Program-made: the position numbers and the translations under genes
Source: Alphaproteobacteria bacterium
Lineage (GTDB): Bacteria > Pseudomonadota > Alphaproteobacteria > CACIAM-22H2
Direction: 5' to 3'
Assembly: GCA_016793165.1 (NCBI GenBank)
Contig: JAEULA010000089.1
Coordinates: 186,001 to 250,000 of the forward strand
Length of the DNA: 64,000 nt
Shown: in pieces, positions 1-9,734 of the stretch
How the letters are laid out: each line of letters begins with the position of its first letter
Numbering within the stretch: the stretch's first letter is position 1
Notes under the pieces: generated by a model
The model's input: the letters and a program-made list of their open reading frames with translations, nothing else
What the model was told of the DNA's origin: nothing
The model's database searches: none

Positions 1-99
1 GCGAACCCGGATATCCGGAGCCCCGGTGTGGCCGATCACGTCGCGCTTGGCGGCACCGTCCCGGCCATGTCCCGGCTCGGGCCGGATACGGGCCGCCGC

Positions 100-873
100 T
101 CAGCCGGCGCGGCCGGGATAGCTCCTCGCCATGCCGTCGCGCACGTCCTGCTGAATGCCGTAGGGCGGGAAGGGATAGCGCAGCCCGTTCTTCGCCAGCG
201 CCGCCATGCCGTCCAGCGCGCGCTCGATGAACTCGGGCGGCGTCGCCATCAGCATCTCGTCGTCGAGCACGCCGCCGTAGCGGCGCTCGGCGAAGCAGGG
301 GATCGACAGCGAGGGCTGGCGCGTCTTGAGCGCGCGCCCCCAGCTGTCGGCGCAGGCGCTCTCGCCGACGATGCTCCAGTCGAAGCGCTTGTAGCCGGTC
401 CACTGCAGGCCGTTGATGAAATACATCATGGCGCCGGGCGTGGCGTAGAACAGCGCGATGTCCGGCGGCTCGAGCCGCCCTGCGGCGAGCGGCGATATCG
501 CCAGCGCCTCGTAGCGCCCGTCCTCGACGCAGGTCATCGCGCCCTGGTGCGCGCGAGCGTCCTCGCCGGTCGCGTACCACACGCCGACCATGTGCTGGCC
601 GGAGCGCCACGCCTCGTCCTTGGCATTGCCGAGGCCGACCACGGCGCGGCATTGCGCGCCGACGAGGTTCTCCGCCGTCACGCCGACGGTCCAGCCGAGT
701 CGCGCGACCTGGCCGACGAGCTGGTCGAGCGTATGGATCGCCTTCGGACGGCGAATGCGCGCGATCGCCTCCATGTCGGCGCGCCGTTCGAAGAGCTTCA
801 TGCCGAATGGAACGCTGCGGAGCTTGAGCACCGCTTCGAGCTTGGCGGCGAGTTCGGCGGTCGATGTGGCCAT
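100..873 (-). CDS. DUF169 family protein
   Basis: A 257-aa soluble protein resembling the DUF169 (COG2043) family, whose biochemical role is not established. Family-like features are the FGMKLF segment near the N-terminus, the ENLVGAQCRAVVGL block and the DIALFYATPGAMMYFINGLQ block. The ATG at 873 was chosen over an upstream in-frame start because GAGG precedes it by about 9 bases. No signal peptide or membrane segment is visible. It is the first complete gene in the window and is followed on the same strand by nothing recognisable in bases 1-99. The family assignment is from sequence memory; function is unknown. Confidence 0.8.
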   Translation of the reverse strand: MATSTAELAAKLEAVLKLRSVPFGMKLFERRADMEAIARIRRPKAIHTLDQLVGQVARLGWTVGVTAENLVGAQCRAVVGLGNAKDEAWRSGQHMVGVWYATGEDARAHQGAMTCVEDGRYEALAISPLAAGRLEPPDIALFYATPGAMMYFINGLQWTGYKRFDWSIVGESACADSWGRALKTRQPSLSIPCFAERRYGGVLDDEMLMATPPEFIERALDGMAALAKNGLRYPFPPYGIQQDVRDGMARSYPGRAG

Positions 874-956
874 GGCGGATCCTCGTGTGGCTGCGCGCGC
901 CGCAATCCGGGGGGCGCGCCGATGCACGCTATCAGGGACGGCGCATGCGCGGCGCG

Positions 957-2150
957 TCAGCGGCGGCTGCGACCGAAGATCGCATCGACGAGCACGCGGG
1001 TGAGAACGACAGCCGGCAAGGCCGCTGCGAGCACGTAACCGATGTCGCCGGTCAGCGAATAGGCGACCGTCGCGCTCCCGGCGCCGGCGAGGCCGGCGGC
1101 GAGCCAGGGCGCGAGACGGATCTGCGCGAGGCAGCCCAGGACCACGGCCGCGGCCGTCGCAGCCAGGACGATGGAGTCGTGTCGCGCGGCCGGTGGCGGC
1201 GCCGGCGGCGTCCGCGGCGCGGCACCGAGCTCCGCGGCGAGCGTGTCCATGGCGGTCGCGACGCGGGCGGCCAGCTCGGCGGTCGAATCGGACCGCGGCC
1301 GGATGCGGCGCCGTCCGTCCGGGGCGACGCGCGCGAAGCGATCCGGCGCCAGGTGCCGTTCGAGGCCGTAGCCGGCGGCGAAGGCGAGGCTGCGCGTATC
1401 GGCCTCGGCGACGATCACCGCCTCGTCGTGGCGTCCGGAGCTCCAGGCCGCACGCACGCGCACGGCGAAATCGCCGAGCCGCTCCGGCCGCGCATCCGCG
1501 ATCGTCAGGACCGAGGCCATGACGCCGGCATGACGGGCGATTGCCGCGCTCGCCTGCTGCAGCCGCGCCGTCGTCTCCGCATCGAGGATGCCGGCAAGGT
1601 CGACGACGGGCGCGCGGGCCGGGATCGCCGCGTCGGATCGTGGCGGCGCCTCGGGATCGAGCAGCGGGGCGTCGAAGCCGGCGAGGTCGCCGGCCTGGAC
1701 GCGAACGATGTGCTGCGCAAGCAGGTCGATGCCGGCGACGAGGTCGTCCTGGAAGACGAAGCGGCGCAGGTCCATCTGCATCGACTCGAGCACATGGCCG
1801 GGAATGCGGGTCGCGAGCGGGGGCGACAGCCGTACGCGCGCCGTCCGGTCGCGCAGCGCGATCGCGGCGACGAGCGCGGCGTCCGGAACGGCGGCGTCGG
1901 CCGCGGCGACGACGTCGTCGAGCGTGCGCGGCATCGCGGTGTCGAGGATGCGGATCGCGATACGCGGTCCGGAATCGCCGAGCACGCGGGCCAGGCTGGC
2001 CTCGATCGCCGAACGGCGGCCGGATCCGAGGATGTCCTGCGTGTCGAGGATCAGGAAATCGGCGGCGATCGCCGGCCGCGCGACCGTCACCGCGAGGAGC
2101 ACGGCCGCGACGACGGCCGAAGTCGGGGACGCGCGCGGGATCGTCGGCAC
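957..2150 (-). CDS. TPM-domain membrane protein (YgcG-like)
   Basis: A 397-aa exported protein. An N-terminal signal segment ends near the AxA before DFLILDTQ. The body contains a TPM-domain-like segment: the part from PVVDLAGILDAETTARL through ASVLTIADARPERLGDFAVR matches the usual TPM opening, in which a ...D.. ..L...... L ... pattern is followed by a beta strand and a helix ending in an R.W/GRHDEAVIV region. The C-terminus has two hydrophobic segments. TPM proteins are poorly defined; some act in photosystem or membrane-protein maintenance. The GTG at 2150 was chosen because it lies 14 bases after the stop of the upstream membrane gene and has a GGGG stretch in front. The open frame extends much further upstream, but that part overlaps the neighbour and looks like a shadow. 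Confidence 0.7.
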   Translation of the reverse strand: MPTIPRASPTSAVVAAVLLAVTVARPAIAADFLILDTQDILGSGRRSAIEASLARVLGDSGPRIAIRILDTAMPRTLDDVVAAADAAVPDAALVAAIALRDRTARVRLSPPLATRIPGHVLESMQMDLRRFVFQDDLVAGIDLLAQHIVRVQAGDLAGFDAPLLDPEAPPRSDAAIPARAPVVDLAGILDAETTARLQQASAAIARHAGVMASVLTIADARPERLGDFAVRVRAAWSSGRHDEAVIVAEADTRSLAFAAGYGLERHLAPDRFARVAPDGRRRIRPRSDSTAELAARVATAMDTLAAELGAAPRTPPAPPPAARHDSIVLAATAAAVVLGCLAQIRLAPWLAAGLAGAGSATVAYSLTGDIGYVLAAALPAVVLTRVLVDAIFGRSRR

Positions 2151-2164
2151 GGCGCGCCCCAGGC

Positions 2165-2701
2165 TCAGGCCCTGGGCACGCCCCGGCGCGCGGCGAGGAC
2201 GGCGCCGAGGATTCCGCCGATGGCGAGTCCCGGAAGGAAGAAGAGGAAGGCGACGAAATAGCCGGCGCCGCCTTCGAAGCTGCTGATCCGGAAGACGTCG
2301 ACGGCGATCATCCCGAGGACGCCGCCGAGGATCGCGCCGAGCGGTGCGCCGATCACGGCGCCGACGGCGGCGCGGGCGCGCCGCAGACGCGGGCTCGCGG
2401 GATCGCTGGCGCGCTCGTTGCGGAGCCAGTCGCGCAGCGCCGCGGTGGCGAAGGCCCAGGCCGCGGGCGCCACCGCAAGCAGGGGCAGTGCCTCCCAGGC
2501 GCGCATCGCGTCCTCGGGGAGCGGCTCCAGGAAGGACAGGCCGATCTTGACCGCCACCAGCAGGACGATGCCGCCGATGCGCTGGCCGCGCGATCCGGCG
2601 AACCAGCCGACCGCGATCGCCGGCACGAAGGTGATCGGCGAGACGAGATCGAACAGGACGACCTGGACGATGACCTCGAGCACTTGCATGGCGGCCAGCA
2701 T
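2165..2701 (-). CDS. Small multi-pass membrane protein
   Basis: A 178-aa hydrophobic protein of unknown function. Predicted membrane segments lie near residues 5-22, 30-47, 58-77, 105-130 and 140-165, with a glycine-rich stretch (GAPLGAILGGVLGMIAV) in the fourth. The ATG at 2701 or the ATG at 2689 could be the start; neither has a strong ribosome binding site, so the exact N-terminus is uncertain. It ends 14 bases before the TPM-domain gene on the same strand, so the two are probably co-transcribed and may work together in the membrane. No family was recognised. Confidence 0.65.
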   Translation of the reverse strand: MLAAMQVLEVIVQVVLFDLVSPITFVPAIAVGWFAGSRGQRIGGIVLLVAVKIGLSFLEPLPEDAMRAWEALPLLAVAPAAWAFATAALRDWLRNERASDPASPRLRRARAAVGAVIGAPLGAILGGVLGMIAVDVFRISSFEGGAGYFVAFLFFLPGLAIGGILGAVLAARRGVPRA

Positions 2702-2830
2702 GCAGATGCGGCGACGGGAAAGCGAGCCCGCCGGGCGTCGGCGCGATCGCCGCGGGGCGCGCGCGCGGCTTGCGCCCGGTGGCGCCGCTGGCGTTCCATG
2801 CACCGTCGGACTTCACGAGGGGAGAGCGCG

Positions 2831-3292
2831 ATGACGCCGGAAGAGAAGATCAAGTCGATGGGCCTGGTGCTGCCCGAGACCCCGAAGCCGCTGGCGAACT
2901 ACGTGCCGTTCAAGCTCGACGGCAGGACCATCTATCTCGCGGGCCAGGGGCCGCGGAAGCCGGACGGCAGCATGTTCACCGGCAAGGTCGGCCGCGACGT
3001 CACGGTCGAGCAGGCGTACGAGCACGCCAAGCTGACCGGCCTATGGCTGCTGGCGGCCGCGCGGGCCGCGGCCGGCGGCCAGCTCGCGCGCGTCGAGGTG
3101 CTGAAGGTCTTCGGCATGGTCAACGGCGTGCCGGAGTTCGGCGACCAGCCGAAGGTCATCAACGGCTGCTCCGACCTGTTCGTCGCCGTGCTCGGCGAGC
3201 GTGGCAAGCATGCGCGCTCCGCCGTCGGCATGGGCTCGCTGCCGATGAACATCAGCGTGGAGATCGAGGCGGTGATGCGCCTGGTCGACTGA
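2831..3292 (+). CDS. RidA / YjgF family protein
   Basis: A 153-aa protein of the RidA (YjgF/YER057c/UK114) superfamily, whose archetype hydrolyses reactive enamine/imine intermediates. Seen: the family block YLAGQGPRKPDG near residues 36-47, a V...QAYEHAKLTGLWLLAAARAA helix, the VLKVFGMVN strand and the C-terminal ARSAVGMGSLPMNISVEIEAV block. At about 150 residues it belongs to the longer subgroup often called the Atu1372/UK114 type, so imine deaminase activity is not assured. A purine-rich AGGGGAGA stretch lies ahead of the ATG at 2831. It stands alone, divergent from the membrane-protein pair and convergent with the propeller gene. Confidence 0.88.
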   Translation: MTPEEKIKSMGLVLPETPKPLANYVPFKLDGRTIYLAGQGPRKPDGSMFTGKVGRDVTVEQAYEHAKLTGLWLLAAARAAAGGQLARVEVLKVFGMVNGVPEFGDQPKVINGCSDLFVAVLGERGKHARSAVGMGSLPMNISVEIEAVMRLVD

Positions 3293-3323
3293 CGGCTCGC
3301 GCCGCCGGTTCCCGCGACGCGTC

Positions 3324-4397
3324 TCAGGCGAAGCGCAGGCAGGCGATCGGCGGCAGATTGCCGGCGACGAGTTGCCAGTGCTCGCCGGCATCCTGGGACA
3401 TCCAGAGATGGCCGGTCGTCGAGCCCATCGCGAGGCAGGTGCCGGTGTTGTCGACGGCGAGGCCGTGCCGATAGACGAGGTCGAAGGCGTCGCGCTGCGG
3501 CAGGCCGGCGCGCAGCACGTCGAAGGACTCGCCGCCGTCGCGCGTGCGCGCGACGACGAGCGCGCCGTCGACGGGGATGCGGCACTCGTCCTTGACCGCG
3601 GGCACGAACCACGCGGTCCGCGGATCCCGCGGATGCACCGCCAGCGCGAAGCCGAACTTGGCGGGACGGATCGCCGTGATCGTCGACCAGGAGGCGGCGC
3701 GATCGGACGAGCGGAAGACCCCGTTGTGGTGCTGGACCCAGAGCGTGTCGGGGGCGGCCGGGCACTGCTCGACGCGATGGACGTCCTGGACCAGCGGATC
3801 GTCCGCCCGCTCGGGCGGCATGTACTCCGCGTGCATGCCGCGGCCGTGCAGACGCCAGGTGGCGCCGGCGTCGTCGCTGAGCCAGATGCCGCCGGTCGAG
3901 ACGCCGACCAGCAGGCGGCGCGAGTCGCGCGGATCGACGCAGATCGAATGGATTCCCGGCTGGTCGTAACCGCCGCCGACCCATTCGCGACGCTCCGCGC
4001 GGTCCCACAGCGACTCGACGAGCGTCCAGCTCTCGCCGCGATCGCGCGAGTGGAACAGGCCGCCGGGAATCGTGCCGGCCCACAGGGCGCCGGGCCGGTC
4101 GGCACCGGCGCTCTCGAGGCTCCAGAGCAGGTGCACGCTCGCGGCCTGGGCGTCGGCGGTCTTGGGATAGGCGGGCGCGGCGACCTCCTGCCAGGCGCCG
4201 CCGGTATCGGCGCGATGGAGCTTCACGCCGAAATGCCCCAGCGCGAGAGCGGCATAGAGGGACCCGTCGCGCGGATCGGGCAGCACCATGGACACGGGCT
4301 CGCCCGGGAAGGCGCGGGCCGCAATCTCCCAGGCCGCACCGCGCGGTCTGAACTCGAACAGCCCCTTGCGGGTGCCGACCACCAGTCGTGCGCTCAT
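3324..4397 (-). CDS. Asp-box (BNR/sialidase-type) beta-propeller protein
   Basis: A 357-aa protein, probably cytoplasmic because no signal peptide is visible. It begins SARLVVGTRKGLFEF and contains five Asp-box motifs: SRDRGESW, SDDAGATW, SSDRAASW, RTRDGGESF and SQDAGEHW. Such repeats form blades of sialidase-like or YCF48-like beta-propellers. Databases often label this family exo-alpha-sialidase, but the arginine triad of true sialidases was not identified, so a binding or scaffold role is as likely. The ATG at 4397 has AAGGGGAG in front. It lies 16 bases after the MoaD-like gene, whose stop codon overlaps its leader, so the two are almost certainly one operon. Confidence 0.8.
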   Translation of the reverse strand: MSARLVVGTRKGLFEFRPRGAAWEIAARAFPGEPVSMVLPDPRDGSLYAALALGHFGVKLHRADTGGAWQEVAAPAYPKTADAQAASVHLLWSLESAGADRPGALWAGTIPGGLFHSRDRGESWTLVESLWDRAERREWVGGGYDQPGIHSICVDPRDSRRLLVGVSTGGIWLSDDAGATWRLHGRGMHAEYMPPERADDPLVQDVHRVEQCPAAPDTLWVQHHNGVFRSSDRAASWSTITAIRPAKFGFALAVHPRDPRTAWFVPAVKDECRIPVDGALVVARTRDGGESFDVLRAGLPQRDAFDLVYRHGLAVDNTGTCLAMGSTTGHLWMSQDAGEHWQLVAGNLPPIACLRFA

Positions 4398-4413
4398 CCG
4401 CTTCTCCCCTTCC

Positions 4414-4680
4414 TCAGCCCCCGGAAAGGGCCTGGAAAACGTATATCTCGTCCTGGCGGCCGACCTCGTCGTCAAGCGCGGCGCGCGCCGCCTGTGCACC
4501 GTTGCGATAGATCGCGACGTGGCGCCGGATCTCGCCCTGGTCGTCGAGGATGTAGCCGCGCAGGCGCGGATGGGCGGCGAAGACGGCGTCGAGCGCGCCG
4601 CGAACGGTCGTGGCCTCGACATCGAGCGTCGGCGTGGCGACGTGACGTTGCAGATTGGCGGTGAAACTGACGCGCGGCAT
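4414..4680 (-). CDS. MoaD/ThiS family ubiquitin-like sulfur carrier
   Basis: An 88-aa beta-grasp protein of the MoaD/ThiS superfamily. It ends in ALSGG, the exposed Gly-Gly tail that E1-like enzymes adenylate before thiocarboxylation. Other family signs are VSFTANLQRHV at the N-terminus, the VRGALDAVFAAHPRL helix and the near C-terminal DEIYVFQALSGG. The ATG at 4680 was chosen because the conserved beta strand starts right after it; an upstream in-frame start exists but adds non-conserved residues. It is the first gene of a pair with the Asp-box propeller. No MoeB/ThiF-type activating enzyme or JAMM peptidase lies in the window, so its partner and substrate are unknown. Confidence 0.8.
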   Translation of the reverse strand: MPRVSFTANLQRHVATPTLDVEATTVRGALDAVFAAHPRLRGYILDDQGEIRRHVAIYRNGAQAARAALDDEVGRQDEIYVFQALSGG

Positions 4681-4849
4681 CGGCGGCAGTCGAGCACAGG
4701 GCGCCGGGCGCGCCAACCCGACGTCGTTCGGGGACTTGTTGCTCCGCGTGCCGCGCTTCGGCCGGCGGCTGCGGCCGCGCTATCTCCGGTTCGTCGGCCG
4801 CGAATGGGCTACAGTCGCGCGACCGAACGATGACCGCGGGAGATCGCCG

Positions 4850-5878
4850 ATGAAACTGCGCCTATTCGCCGCCGCCGGCCTGACGGCGGCTCTGCTGATC
4901 GCCGCGCCGCAAGCCCGGGCGCAGACGGGCCTCACCGTCTACTGCTCGGTCCTCGCCGACTGGTGCCAGCTGATGGCCGTCGAGTTCGAAAAGCAGAGCG
5001 GCATCCGGGTGAATGTCGCCCAGAAGGGTTCGGGCGAGACGCTCGCCCAGATCCGCGCCGAGGCGGCCAATCCGCGCGGCGACGTGTGGTGGGGCGGGAC
5101 CGGGGATCCGCATCTCCAGGCGGGCGAGCTCGGCCTGACCGACGTCTACCGCTCGCCGAAGCTCGAGGAGCTGCATCCCTGGGCGCGTCGCCAGGCCGAG
5201 CAGTCGGGCTACCGCACCGTGGGCATCTATGCCGGCGCGCTCGGCATCGCGGTCAACACCGAGCAGCTCGCACGCAAGAAGCTGACGGCGCCGCGCTGCT
5301 GGAAGGATCTGCTCGGCGCGTCGTTCCGCGACGAGGTGCAGATGTCGAACCCGTCGTCGTCGGGCACGGCCTACACCGCGATCGCGACCTTCGTGCAGGT
5401 GTTCGGCGAGGATGGCGGCTTCGACTACCTGAAGCAGCTGCATCGCAACGTCAGCCAGTACACGCGCTCCGGGCCCGCGCCGGCGCGCAACACCGCGCGC
5501 GGCGAAACGATGCTCGGCATCATGTTCCTGCACGACGCCGTGGCCGAGGCGGTCGAGGGATTCCCGGTCGCCGTGGTCAGCCCCTGCGAGGGCACCGGCT
5601 ACGAGATCGGCTCGATGTCGATCATCAAGGGCGCGCGCAATCCCGACGCCGCGAAGCGCTGGTACGAGTTCGCGCTGACGCCCGAGGCGCAAGCGCTCGC
5701 CGCGCGCGCCAAGTCCTACCAGACGCCGTCGCATCCCAAGGCCGCGGTGCCGGCCCAGGCGCCGAAGCTCTCGGAGATGAAGCTGATCGACTACGACTTC
5801 GCCAAGTACGGCTCGTCGGCCGAGCGCAAGCGGCTGATCGAGAAATGGGAGAAGGAGGTCGGGTCGCAGCCGAAGTGA
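4850..5878 (+). CDS. Periplasmic solute-binding protein (Fe3+/phosphonate-type)
   Basis: A 342-aa exported protein of the type 2 solute-binding family related to FbpA-like iron and 2-aminoethylphosphonate receptors. A signal peptide runs to about residue 24 (LLIAAPQARA|Q). The mature start, LTVYCSVLADWCQLMAVEFEKQ, and the following segments RVNVAQKGSGET and RGDVWWGGTGD are typical of this group. Near the C-terminus is SMSIIKGARNPDAAKRWYEF. The ligand cannot be read from sequence. The ATG at 4850 follows GGGAGA. No permease or ATPase gene is adjacent; the next gene is an MFS transporter 82 bases downstream. Confidence 0.83.
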   Translation: MKLRLFAAAGLTAALLIAAPQARAQTGLTVYCSVLADWCQLMAVEFEKQSGIRVNVAQKGSGETLAQIRAEAANPRGDVWWGGTGDPHLQAGELGLTDVYRSPKLEELHPWARRQAEQSGYRTVGIYAGALGIAVNTEQLARKKLTAPRCWKDLLGASFRDEVQMSNPSSSGTAYTAIATFVQVFGEDGGFDYLKQLHRNVSQYTRSGPAPARNTARGETMLGIMFLHDAVAEAVEGFPVAVVSPCEGTGYEIGSMSIIKGARNPDAAKRWYEFALTPEAQALAARAKSYQTPSHPKAAVPAQAPKLSEMKLIDYDFAKYGSSAERKRLIEKWEKEVGSQPK

Positions 5879-5960
5879 CGCGCCGCGTGGCGCCGTCGAT
5901 GCGATGCGGGCGCCGTCCGCCCACCGCGCGGGCCGTGGCCGGCTCGCCGGGGCCGGGGGC

Positions 5961-7139
5961 ATGACGTCCGATACCGTCGCCGCGCCGGCGCCGTCGCGCC
6001 GCCGCACGCTGGCCGTCTGCGGCGGCGCGCATGCGCTGCATGACGGCTACACGGACCTGCTCGGGATCCTGCTGCCCCTGCTGCAGGCGCAGTTCGCATT
6101 GAGCTACACGGCCGTCGGGGCCTTGCGCACGATCTACGCGTTCGGCATGGCGGGCGGGCAGATCCCGGCCGGGCTGGTCGCCGAGCGCGTCGGCGGGCGC
6201 TTCGTGCTCGCGCTCGGCACCGCGCTGTCCGCGCTCGGCTACCTCGTCGCCGGCCTCGGCGGCGGCCTCGCGGGCGCCGTTCTCGGCATCGCGCTCAGCG
6301 GCCTCGGCTCGAGCACGCAGCATCCGATCGCCTCGAGCCTGGTCGCCGCCGCGCATGACGACACCAGCTCGCGCACGGCGATCGGCACCTACAACTTCGC
6401 CGGCGACGTCGGCAAGGTCGTGATCCCCGCGAGCTTCGCGCTGCTTGCCTCGCTCGTCCCGTGGCAAAGCGGGCTGCTCGCGGTGGCCGGCCTCGGTCTC
6501 GCCGCCGCGCTGATGCTGCCCGTGCTGATCCCGCCGGCCCTCGACCGCACGCTGATCCGCAAGCGCGATGCGGCGGCGGCCAGCGGCGCCGTCCCGACCG
6601 GCCCGTTCCGGCTGCTGCTCGCGATCGGCATGACGGATTCGATGGTGCGTGCGGGCTTCCTCACCTTCCTGCCGTTCCTGCTCGCGAGCAAAGGGGCGTC
6701 GCTGTCGCTGCTCGGCCTCGCGCTCAGCCTGCTCTTCGCCGGCGGGGCCGCGGGCAAGCTCGTCTGCGGCTGGCTCGGCCACCGCTTCGGCATGCTGCCC
6801 GTCGTCATCGGCACCGAGGCGCTCACGGCGCTGACCCTGCTGGCGGCGCTGCCGTTGCCGCTGGAGGTGCTGCTCGTCCTGCTGCCGATCCTCGGCATCG
6901 CGCTCAACGGCACCTCGTCCGTGCTCTACGGCACCGTGCCCGAGCTCGTCGCGCCGGAGCGGCGCGCGCGCGCCTTCGCGGTTTTCTACACCGCCGGCTC
7001 GCTCGCGGGTGGGCTCGGCCCGCTGGTCGGCGGCGCGCTCGGCGACACGCTGGGGCTTGCGACGATGATCGCGCTGCTCGCGCTCTGCGCGCTCGCCACG
7101 ATCCCGCTCGCCGTCCGGCTGCGGCCGTCGCTGGGCTGA
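5961..7139 (+). CDS. MFS transporter, fosmidomycin-resistance (Fsr)-like
   Basis: A 392-aa 12-helix major facilitator. The N-terminal CGGAHALHDGYTDLLGILLPLL block is close to the Fsr/fosmidomycin resistance type, and GLGSSTQHPIASSLVA in the fourth to fifth helices is also typical. The cytoplasmic loop motif after the second helix reads GLVAERVGGRF. Efflux of a small anionic or drug-like compound is a reasonable guess, but the substrate is not known. The start at 5961 has a GGGG-rich stretch just upstream. It ends 6 bases before the convergent TauD gene. Confidence 0.82.
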   Translation: MTSDTVAAPAPSRRRTLAVCGGAHALHDGYTDLLGILLPLLQAQFALSYTAVGALRTIYAFGMAGGQIPAGLVAERVGGRFVLALGTALSALGYLVAGLGGGLAGAVLGIALSGLGSSTQHPIASSLVAAAHDDTSSRTAIGTYNFAGDVGKVVIPASFALLASLVPWQSGLLAVAGLGLAAALMLPVLIPPALDRTLIRKRDAAAASGAVPTGPFRLLLAIGMTDSMVRAGFLTFLPFLLASKGASLSLLGLALSLLFAGGAAGKLVCGWLGHRFGMLPVVIGTEALTALTLLAALPLPLEVLLVLLPILGIALNGTSSVLYGTVPELVAPERRARAFAVFYTAGSLAGGLGPLVGGALGDTLGLATMIALLALCALATIPLAVRLRPSLG

Positions 7140-7145
7140 GGCGCG

Positions 7146-8204
7146 TCAGCCCGTCTGCGCGATTCCGCCGCGGCGCGCGCCCGCCGCCACGTCGCGCCAC
7201 AGCACGGCATGATCCTCGGGCAGCGCGCGGCTGTTCGGCATCGACAGCCAGAGCCGCAGCAGCAGCCGGTCGCGGCCGCTCGCGGCATCGTCCTCGAATT
7301 CCGTGCGGCCGTGATAGGTGACATGGCTGTTGATGAACTGCAGGTCCCCGGGCTCGAGCGTCATCTCGAAGCAGAGCTCCTCGGCGAGCGTCATCAGCAT
7401 CTCGATCGCCTCGCGCTGCGCGGAGGTCAGCTTCGGCACGCCCTCGACCAGCTGGGCCGCCTCGATGTAGGTGAGCGAGTAGTGGCTCGTGAAGCGGCCG
7501 TCGCGCTGGCCGAAGATCGGCAGCGGGTAGACGTCCTCGGCGCGATCGGACTCCTCGCCGAGGCGGCTGCGCCAGATCGGCGCGCGCAGCAGCGTCGCGA
7601 GGTCGGGTCGGCGCGCCTGCATCGCGTTGTGGACCGCTGCCGAGCTGCAGAGCTTGCTCACGCCGCCGGCGCGCGCCTGGCGCACGCAGAGCAGCGAGAC
7701 GACGTCGGTGCGATCGGTATGGAAGCGCAGCCGGCCGTTGCTGAGCGTGCGCGCGTAGGACGACAGGAACGTGCCGCCTTCGCCGGTCTTCACCTGGCCG
7801 TAGCGCGCGCCGAGGTCGCCGCCCTCGTCGCGGATCGCGCGCATCAGCTCGCCGCGGCGGTTCTGGAAGACCGGCGTGCCGACATGGCGGCCGAGGCCGA
7901 AATAGAGCAGGCGCAGCGCGTCGAGGCTCTTGCCGGCGACCGGCACGCCCGAGAGCTTGAGGATGCCGCTGCCGTTCTCGAGCTCGTCGCGGATGTCGGC
8001 GACGAGCGGCGCGAGCTCCGGCAGCGGGAAGGTCCGGGCGGTCAGCGACTTCCAGTTCTCGCCGCGTCGCTGCGCGTCGGCCAGCGCCCGCTCGAGCGCC
8101 GCGACCTGGGCGGGATCGAGGGCGCGTCGCCAGCGCGGCGAGCCGGCCATGTCGGCGCCGCGCCAGACGCAGGTGCCGGAGATCGCGGAGTTCGCTTCGG
8201 TCAT
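7146..8204 (-). CDS. TauD/TfdA-family Fe(II)/2-oxoglutarate dioxygenase
   Basis: A 352-aa oxygenase. The iron-binding facial triad is visible: His162 and Asp164 in RFHTDRTD, and distal His298 in TYHGRTEF, with the 2-oxoglutarate-binding arginine in LLLRLWLSMPN. It is clearly paralogous to the enzyme at 34141-35229: both share YFGLG.HVGTP / YYGLGVHIGVP, an AVHN motif and the same C-terminal HGRT..E pattern. The natural substrate is unknown; taurine specificity is not implied. The ATG at 8204 has only a weak ribosome binding site. It is the last gene of a minus-strand run and lies 61 bases after the glutamine amidotransferase gene. Confidence 0.88.
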   Translation of the reverse strand: MTEANSAISGTCVWRGADMAGSPRWRRALDPAQVAALERALADAQRRGENWKSLTARTFPLPELAPLVADIRDELENGSGILKLSGVPVAGKSLDALRLLYFGLGRHVGTPVFQNRRGELMRAIRDEGGDLGARYGQVKTGEGGTFLSSYARTLSNGRLRFHTDRTDVVSLLCVRQARAGGVSKLCSSAAVHNAMQARRPDLATLLRAPIWRSRLGEESDRAEDVYPLPIFGQRDGRFTSHYSLTYIEAAQLVEGVPKLTSAQREAIEMLMTLAEELCFEMTLEPGDLQFINSHVTYHGRTEFEDDAASGRDRLLLRLWLSMPNSRALPEDHAVLWRDVAAGARRGGIAQTG

Positions 8205-8265
8205 GGCGTCGTCTCGTGGTTGTCGTTGCGCCGGGCGCGGCTCTCGGCCGCCCGCCGCGCCGGCC

Positions 8266-8997
8266 TCACCCGCGGCGCGCCAGCGTGTCGAGCCAGCGCA
8301 GCGGCTCGAGCGCCAGCGCGTCGTCGTTCGGCAGCGTGTCGACGCTGGGCTCGGGACGGAAGGCCCGGCCCATGCTCGCGAATTCTGCGCACGAATATTC
8401 CGGATGGTACTGCACGCCCATGAAGGTCGCGCCCTCCGCGGCGACGCGCAGCGCCTGGATGCGCGACCGGCCGTTGGTCGCCAGCACGACGGCGCCGGCG
8501 GGCGGCTCGACCACGGCGTCGAGATGCCAGGCGTGCGAGTCGAACGTCGCCGGGCGGTGGCGCAGCACCGGATCCGCACGGCCGGCTTCGGACAGGGCGA
8601 CGTCGCGTGCGAGCCCGATCTCCGGCCCCTCGGGATCCGGCATGACGCGGCCGCCGAGCGCGACGCAGCCGATCTGCAGTCCCCAGCACAGCCCGAACAC
8701 CGGCGTGCCGGCCTGGAGGAGCGCGCGAACCAGGCGCGCCTGGCCCGCGACGTCGCGCGTGTCGTCGTAGGCGTGCAGCACCGAGCCGGTGAAGATCGCG
8801 CCGTCGTATCGGGTCAGGTCGGCCGGCGACGCCGCGCCGTCGCAGGGATAGTGCACGTCCAGCTGGAGCCCCGGCCGGCGCGGCGCGAGCGTGCGCGACA
8901 GCTGCACGGCGAGGTCGCCGTCGATCGGCACCGCGAGCCGCGCGCGGTCCGCCGCGGGATTGCCGTCGACCACGAGGATCCGCAGCGGCGGGCTCAC
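8266..8997 (-). CDS. Class I glutamine amidotransferase-like protein
   Basis: A 243-aa stand-alone class I glutamine amidotransferase domain. The nucleophile is Cys104 in FGLCWGLQIG, and the catalytic His-Glu pair is in VQYHPEYSCAE. This resembles GuaA-like GATases and the YfeJ/GMP-synthase-like family, which hydrolyse glutamine or gamma-glutamyl compounds. The GTG start at 8997 overlaps the stop of the upstream coiled-coil gene by four bases (GTGA), which points to translational coupling. No synthetase domain is attached, so it may act as a gamma-glutamyl hydrolase or serve a partner elsewhere. Confidence 0.85.
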   Translation of the reverse strand: MSPPLRILVVDGNPAADRARLAVPIDGDLAVQLSRTLAPRRPGLQLDVHYPCDGAASPADLTRYDGAIFTGSVLHAYDDTRDVAGQARLVRALLQAGTPVFGLCWGLQIGCVALGGRVMPDPEGPEIGLARDVALSEAGRADPVLRHRPATFDSHAWHLDAVVEPPAGAVVLATNGRSRIQALRVAAEGATFMGVQYHPEYSCAEFASMGRAFRPEPSVDTLPNDDALALEPLRWLDTLARRG

Positions 8998-9734
8998 GGA
9001 TACTTGCAGCTGTCGGAGGTCACCGTGACGAAGCCGCGGGCGTCGCCCTGCGTGACGACGAAGCGGTGCTCGAGATCGTTGACGACGACGGAGTGGTTGA
9101 TCGGCAGCACGCCCTTGGCCACGGTCTCCGCACCGCCGATGCGCGTGAAGACGACGGTCAGCGGCTTGCCCGGGTCGAACCACGCCTGCGGCCGGCCCTC
9201 GGCATCAAGGGTGATCTCGCCCGTGGCGCTGACCGTGATCGTGCGATCGGCGAAGGAGACGGTGTCGTTCACGGCGGGCGCGCGCGGTCCGGCCTTGACG
9301 AGGAACCGCTTGCTTGTCGGCTTGTCGTCGCAGCGCCGCGCATTCTCGACCGCTGCCAGGACGCCCGCGATCCGCTCCGGAGTCACGCCCGCGGAGAGCT
9401 TCTCGCGCGCGAGCCTCAGGATCTCGGAAATGGCGCCCGTCGGCACGTCGGACTCGTAGCGCTTGCGCAGTTCCTCGGCCCGCGCGCTGGTCGTGGCAAG
9501 GTCGCGCTGCAGCTGGTCCTTGTCGCGCTGCAGGGTCTGGGTCGCGGTGGTCAGCTCCGCGACCTGCCGGCGCAGCTCGATCGTGTCGCGCTGCGCGATC
9601 CGCGTCCCCGTCTCGTGCGCGTAGTAGCCGATCGCGCCGAAGATCGCGAGCAGCACCGCCCATTTCGCGATGCCGAGAAGGATGCGGCCGCGCCGGCGGG
9701 TGCGGGCGCGCGCTTCATGGAATCCGTGTCGCAT
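8994..9734 (-). CDS. Single-pass membrane protein with coiled coil
   Basis: A 246-aa protein of unknown function. An arginine-rich cytoplasmic tail (residues 1-17) is followed by one membrane helix near 19-42 and a coiled coil at about 50-95 (rich in QL, DL and EELRK heptads). A globular C-terminal part near 145-246 is rich in beta strands and ends with CKYP. The ATG at 9734 is a clear start but lacks a strong ribosome binding site. It overlaps the amidotransferase start by four bases. The layout suggests an inner-membrane anchored periplasmic protein. No family was recognised. Confidence 0.72.
   Translation of the reverse strand: MRHGFHEARARTRRRGRILLGIAKWAVLLAIFGAIGYYAHETGTRIAQRDTIELRRQVAELTTATQTLQRDKDQLQRDLATTSARAEELRKRYESDVPTGAISEILRLAREKLSAGVTPERIAGVLAAVENARRCDDKPTSKRFLVKAGPRAPAVNDTVSFADRTITVSATGEITLDAEGRPQAWFDPGKPLTVVFTRIGGAETVAKGVLPINHSVVVNDLEHRFVVTQGDARGFVTVTSDSCKYP

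Follow-up and report, generated by a model that had tools for sequence, protein, structure and literature searches.

Several biosynthetic pathways, those of Moco, thiamin, cysteine, thiosugars and tRNA thiolation, were opened once the partner of a sulfur carrier had been found. MoaE, ThiG, CysM and BexX use the sulfur or the activated end of their carriers, and CysO is an example of a carrier with a dedicated acceptor enzyme (CysM, BexX). The CysO-CysM system of Mycobacterium and the CysO-BexX system of Amycolatopsis contain a Ubl of the same class as the one described here. In the CysO systems the E1 is common to several carriers, as is proposed here, and MoeZR sulfurates both MoaD and CysO, one E1 serving several carriers (PMC3227635). 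Unlike in the CysO systems, the partner in the present locus is a beta-propeller, and no third gene recurs by the pair. Another described relative of the carrier is SAMP1 of Haloferax volcanii, which is its best fold match, yet the Ubl stays under the cut-off of the SAMP1 model. The propeller belongs to the same family as 3B7F, deposited as 'glycosyl hydrolase, BNR repeat', a solved structure whose function is entered as 'Not known' (PMC2716378). GH33 sialidases, GH74 xyloglucanases, Ycf48/HCF136 and sortilin are Asp-box propellers too, with weak profile matches and far less structural similarity to this propeller than 3B7F. As far as the literature was searched, the carrier with a dedicated partner is a known kind of system and the propeller partner is new. 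No description of the pair was found among the first hits of the searches of open-licence PMC literature, and a term look-up in the main text of two prokaryotic Ubl surveys (PMC1779556 and PMC2948915) returned no mention of a propeller partner.

The window, the whole stretch of 64,000 nucleotides that was analysed, carries the two genes one behind the other on the minus strand. The Ubl, a SAMP1/CysO-like beta-grasp carrier of 88 aa (4414..4680), ends in QALSGG and thus has a free C-terminal Gly-Gly. It is followed by a gap of 16 bases (4398..4413, minus strand, sequence read directly), which holds the Shine-Dalgarno-like leader of the propeller; this purine-rich leader, GGAAGGGGAG, lies immediately 3' of the TGA of the Ubl. 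The propeller, a seven-bladed, probably cytosolic Asp-box (BNR) protein of the 3B7F (Reut_B4987) family, spans 3324..4397 on the minus strand (357 aa). The initial annotation had placed an 88-aa Gly-Gly protein 16 bases from a propeller, and direct reading of the sequence together with the list of ORFs confirms both frames at these positions and the observation as a whole. By eye, the flanks on the plus strand encode a RidA-type protein-like product (2831-3292) and an ABC substrate-binding protein-like product (4851-5878), and neither moaE nor other molybdopterin genes were recognised among the ORFs of window positions 1-9000.

The family of the Ubl was read from its profile, fold and tail. 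It passes the curated cut-off of the Pfam ThiS model (PF02597; E 3.3e-6, 28 bits against 22.5), and to this extent the description as a MoaD/ThiS-like carrier stands. Its closest kin by profile and fold are SAMP1 and CysO, not MoaD or ThiS. SAMP1 is the nearest of the NCBIfam models (NF041918 equivalog; E 4.7e-15, 55.9 bits), and since this score is below the curated cut-off of 60, the protein is filed only as a SAMP1 relative. The same model matches 68/68 diverse paired Ubls at E <= 0.001. The AlphaFold2 model (pLDDT 84.7) has SAMP1 3po0 as its top fold match (33% identity, TM 0.79), with CysO of Amycolatopsis (4n6e_B) and the Mycobacterium carrier 3dwg_C at ranks 5 and 6. By profile these two chains are the closest solved ones, with SAMP1 also among the closest. 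The MoaD of molybdopterin synthase was considered as an identity for the Ubl and rejected: the genome has its moaD elsewhere (C72), beside a moaE-like ORF by eye.

The pairing of the two genes is kept far outside close relatives. With the window excluded, 277 distinct relatives of the propeller were compared. They come from at least seven phyla, and 245 of them have an adjoining Ubl on the same strand, a recurrence which makes the pairing more than chance. The median gap between the genes is 18 bp, and it stays within 250 bp in 243/245 cases (the other two are 263 and 771 bp). A Ubl neighbour on the opposite strand was seen neither in the 137-locus set nor in the 160 loci of Actinomycetota and Planctomycetota. 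No fusion of the two genes was noticed in the first 30 loci.

Several samples contribute to this count. Among the genomes of relatives, 34/143 have a propeller match; 30 loci read there comprise 26 with the Ubl (14 upstream, 12 downstream) and four without, two of these at contig edges. In a scan of the genome collection the best 80 of 583 relatives, a set which leans toward the subfamily with an upstream Ubl, show it upstream on the same strand in 78; locus L061 is without it and L083 is cut by a contig edge. The record titles of these 80 cover Pseudomonadota, Planctomycetota, Acidobacteriota, Verrucomicrobiota, Chloroflexota, Nitrospirota and Actinomycetota. The 137-locus set, which includes the window's own locus (L004) and leaves aside L001-L003, L114 and L116 as other Ubls or repeats, has a same-strand adjoining Ubl in 118 (99 upstream, 19 downstream) and none in 19, of which four are at contig edges and three, L033, L141 and L142, are remote homologues only (one of these likewise lies at an edge). 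When 398 genomes were sampled evenly across the window's phylum, 28 had a full-length propeller, and only 17 of these had an adjoining Ubl. At E <= 1e-20, some remote homologues included, the propeller was found in 88/296 sampled genomes of the phylum of L112 (titled Actinomycetes) and in 91/199 of that of L044 (titled Planctomycetota). The Ubl adjoins 57/70 of the actinomycetotal loci, the best of 98 places (29 upstream, 28 downstream, 13 none), and 84/90 of the planctomycetotal loci, taken from better-scoring places (60 upstream, 24 downstream, 6 none). This makes 141 of the 160 loci, a count that covers the better-scoring places of both phyla, the lower-scoring ones being in many cases partial or remote. 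Tandem propeller genes occur in four Planctomycetota loci (L308, L314, L315 and L317; genomes G918, G952, G1025 and G854), where the Ubl count covers the better-scoring copy. The pair was also found in Pseudomonas, Pandoraea, Paraburkholderia and Cupriavidus metallidurans. On plasmid pZYPA1927 of P. aeruginosa, a 'MoaD/ThiS family protein' and an 'exo-alpha-sialidase' are 20 bp apart. The Ubl is present in the plasmid records of P. aeruginosa and C. metallidurans and absent within 4-5 kb in those of Streptomyces, Marivivens and Halocatena, five records in all.

The arrangement of the pair is dynamic. A FastTree tree was built from 278 distinct propellers, after removal of those below 330 bits, five repeats, contig-edge misses and identical sequences. 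It holds 180 with the Ubl upstream (window counted), 66 with it downstream and 32 with none. On this one tree the gene order flips at least four times and the presence of the Ubl changes at least 12 times. Such changes of order without loss of the pair are counted as evidence for a two-gene functional unit. No third gene recurs in the 84 loci that were compared with flanks of up to 5-6 kb: every gene cluster present in more than 11 of these loci is the pair itself or an overlapping frame, and the largest other one (11/84) is by eye an ABC ATPase. This agrees with the earlier remark that no activator or cofactor genes are near. A bacterial E1-E2-JAB conjugation operon was considered and rejected, as no E1, E2 or JAB gene recurs beside the Ubl in the 84 loci or, by eye, stands among the neighbours in the window.

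The charging of the Ubl would have to be provided from elsewhere in the genome. The genome of the window (93.19% complete, 7.84% contamination) has one E1 (PF00899) above the cut-off, which means that charging, if any, is shared. It has two further PF02597 genes, the moaD on C72 and one by a coxL-like ORF (by eye). The initial annotation had proposed a separate sulfur-carrier or protein-modifier system, and this reading stands in part: the two-gene unit is conserved widely, and separate activation is contradicted by the single E1. E1 is above the cut-off in 40/41 pair-holding genomes, the one without it being 84% complete and the match in G005 being partial; as E1 is nearly universal, its presence is weak evidence. 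The preferred reading is that of a two-gene functional unit, in which the housekeeping E1 would charge the carrier and the propeller would be the partner enzyme that it serves. The pairing itself is observed, and the chemistry attached to it is put forward tentatively, at somewhat less than an even chance. In the proposed sequence of events, the free Gly-Gly of the Ubl would be activated, probably thiocarboxylated, by a housekeeping E1 of the MoeB/ThiF type, and the charged Ubl would dock onto its cognate cytosolic propeller. There, Lys11, His207, Gln222, His224, Arg273 and Arg310 may form one pocket, which would take the SGG tail, a small acidic substrate or both, so that the propeller could use the sulfur or the activated acyl end of the carrier. 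This carrier-enzyme reading is favoured because of the free Gly-Gly, the kinship of the Ubl, the lack of a recurring E2 or JAMM gene alongside, the shared E1 and the precedent of MoeZR. That the propeller is the catalytic acceptor of the carrier in a sulfur- or acyl-transfer pathway that is both widespread and undescribed is possible, with doubt outweighing confidence.

In GH33 sialidases, catalysis depends on an Arg triad with Tyr/Glu and Asp, and it is with this enzyme class that the propeller is associated by name. Records of its relatives read 'exo-alpha-sialidase' or 'sialidase family protein', BNR_2 matches occur in 18/74 members of the family, and GH74 propellers are among the fold matches. 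A true sialidase or other glycosidase, with the Ubl as a chance neighbour, would explain these names. It is already disfavoured and highly improbable, given the Ubl that adjoins 245/277 of the propellers, and the label 'exo-alpha-sialidase' is not supported. One survey lists sialidases with six blades and GH74 enzymes with two tandem seven-bladed propellers (PMC2716378). The AlphaFold2 model of the window propeller (pLDDT 95.6) has seven blades as read from its strand list, with the C-terminal strand completing blade 1 as its inner strand, and membership in GH33 was rejected on this ground. The nearest structure, 3B7F (Reut_B4987 of Ralstonia eutropha JMP134), itself without a known activity in that source, superposes with Z 48.6 and an rmsd of 1.8 A over 347 residues at 37% identity. 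A phmmer comparison (E 1.6e-60, residues 5-354) indicates full-length homology. The next structural rows (GH74, lactonase-like and WD propellers) reach Z of at most 28.6, and matches to lactonase-type propellers and to thiocyanate dehydrogenase have the fold in common. The Pfam matches of the propeller are Sortilin-Vps10 and BNR. Five Asp-boxes had been claimed for it; four match the strict motif (SRDRGESW, SDDAGATW, TRDGGESF and SQDAGEHW), and the rest of the claim comes down to two more degenerate ones seen by eye. For the homologue 3b7f, the survey gives seven blades and five Asp-boxes (PMC2716378). Nor does the propeller resemble only periplasmic enzymes. In a crude scan a signal-peptide-like stretch precedes 0/245 of the Ubl-adjoined propellers (the start codon is uncertain in 49/245) and appears only upstream of two propellers that lack the Ubl, so the protein is probably cytosolic.

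The conserved residues of the propeller narrow down its possible role. In 277 distinct propellers, Lys11 is kept in 275, Ser167 in 275, His207 in 277, Gln222 in 274, His224 in 276 and Arg310 in 277, while Arg273 is found in 255 with His in the remaining 22. Further polar positions kept in at least 90% of the 277 are His150 (268), Thr9 (264), Asp41 (256) and the Asp-box residues Ser117, Asp119 and Asp176. Asp41 is put on the opposite face by the strand reading; the other conserved polar residues, those of the Asp-boxes apart, are predicted by the model to sit within the D-A and B-C loops of one face or next to them. Blade and face assignments follow from the order of the strands and the usual build of propellers rather than from coordinates. 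In a 129-sequence alignment (propellers under 350 bits, L075 and contig-edge misses removed), positions conserved at 95% number 18/138 in the top loops, 10/80 in the bottom loops and 9/134 in the strands. The two faces are thus alike in the density of conserved positions, and the difference is in the kind of residue. The invariant polar residues favour an enzyme or a dedicated binder.

Alternatively, the invariant Lys11 could be a site of conjugation. This belongs to the main rival of the carrier-enzyme reading, in which the Ubl would be a protein modifier in the manner of SAMP1/Urm1, attached to propeller lysines or, by way of the propeller, to those of other proteins, with the propeller as target or adaptor. 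The closest Ubl profile and fold are those of SAMP1, which in an archaeon is reported to be covalently linked to molybdopterin synthase (PMC4443979), and a single lysine is kept in 275/277 propellers. Set against these points are the lack of a recurring E2 or own E1 by the pair in 84 loci and the lack of a JAMM peptidase above the cut-off in six pair-holding genomes (that of the window, G025, G059, G098, G197 and G444), and the modifier reading is judged unlikely. The best JAMM score in the window's genome is 22 bits, under the cut-off of 25.

The distribution of JAMM peptidases also bears on a reading in which the propeller is a hydrolase acting on the Ubl, whose tail would thereby lose a product or partner, in place of Mec/QbsD, as the JAMM peptidases of this kind are named. 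The six of 34 pair-holding genomes without JAMM above the cut-off, that of the window included, would fit such a replacement, as would the invariant His, Lys and Arg residues. JAMM is present, however, in the other 28/34, including 21/21 actinomycetotal genomes with extended Ubl tails, and the propeller also occurs without this Ubl, which leaves the hydrolase very unlikely. All 24 Actinomycetota examined have JAMM (21 with extended tails, three with exact GG), so its presence does not separate the two kinds of tail there. Among the 245 paired Ubls, GG is terminal in 204, followed by an extension of at least one residue in 39, and absent in two; they were found with an alignment model that covers the tail and may favour GG-bearing Ubls. 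Trimming would be required for the 39 extended tails. In several Actinomycetota Ubls (L206, L212, L248, L250 and others) several residues follow GG and the genomes have a JAMM peptidase; these extended forms may be trimmed pro-forms.

The same tails can be set beside the propellers without an adjoining Ubl in a further reading, a non-covalent regulatory or assembly pair, in which the Ubl would be a small subunit or chaperone with an inherited, unused GG. Extension past GG in 39/245 Ubls and the existence of Ubl-less propellers speak for it. The retention of GG in 243/245, terminal in 204 (with the same possible bias of the search model), makes an unused tail hard to explain, and this arrangement appears quite unlikely. 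The 32 propellers of the 277 without an adjoining Ubl comprise 10 from family f23 of the window's class, at a guess Rhodobacterales, 13 from Actinomycetota, six from Planctomycetota and three others (L026, L061 and L126). Family f23 also provides 10 of the 11 misses in the even sample of the phylum. Since the Ubl-less propellers retain the same conserved residues, those residues are not necessarily there for this Ubl, which counts against a strict partnership of the two proteins. The pair-type Ubl is absent from 8/11 genomes of f23 and G392 taken together, with only weak matches in the other three, and the genomes of the 13 actinomycetotal loci contain two or three Ubl matches at other places, of which some have CysO-like surroundings (L349, L359, L365). 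Some ThiS/MoaD protein is encoded in 13/13 Ubl-less genomes examined. With the residues kept and the Ubl absent, such propellers either borrow another carrier or perform a chemistry which needs none. In one Planctomycetota genome (L347, G937) a pair-type Ubl lies ~7 kb from the Ubl-less propeller on the same contig.

The side-by-side conservation across very distant bacteria suggests an undescribed working pair. If the carrier-enzyme reading is true, a pathway common to distant phyla has been concealed by the name 'sialidase', and the propeller would be, to our knowledge, the first propeller enzyme to work on a Ubl thiocarboxylate. The linkage to the Ubl provides the first concrete, testable partner for a misnamed propeller family whose solved relative is without a function.

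Coupling between the two proteins was analysed by mean-field DCA of 244 pairs, in which the top inter-protein couplings fall at gap columns. On low-gap columns the top score is 5.75, a value that one of 12 re-paired controls surpasses (6.0), and the fifth-best score, 4.79, is higher than in any control (1.43 to 2.82). Each of the five top pairs links T16 of the Ubl with the run 196-200, and this concentration at one Ubl column looks like shared indels. The mirror-tree correlation between Ubl and propeller is 0.83, species relatedness uncorrected. A role in phage defence was rejected, as PADLOC gave one match at E 0.028 for the Ubl and none for the propeller.

Related Ubls also occur away from propellers, where their neighbours are by eye cysteine-synthase-like and threonine-synthase-like, ThiF, JAMM or YcaO-like genes. 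In the even sample of the window's phylum, 64 of the 95 Ubl-matching genomes are of family f143, and no adjoining propeller was seen in the loci read (five of 15 fetched, one of them from f162). By eye, the Ubl of these five loci is flanked by a threonine-synthase-like gene and a small NIL-like one; a cysteine-synthase gene comes next, and in L166 ThiF lies beyond it. In L182 (G155) a pair-type Ubl adjoins ThiF and a YcaO-like gene in what looks by eye like a peptide-modification cluster. Another small Ubl adjoins a coxL- or coxS-like molybdoenzyme gene, also by eye, in the window's genome (L002) and in f23 genomes (L183/L184). Within the propeller, residue 205, two before His207, varies with the position of the Ubl: it is Asp in 146/179 propellers with the Ubl upstream and mostly Cys where the Ubl is downstream (46/66) or missing (26/32).
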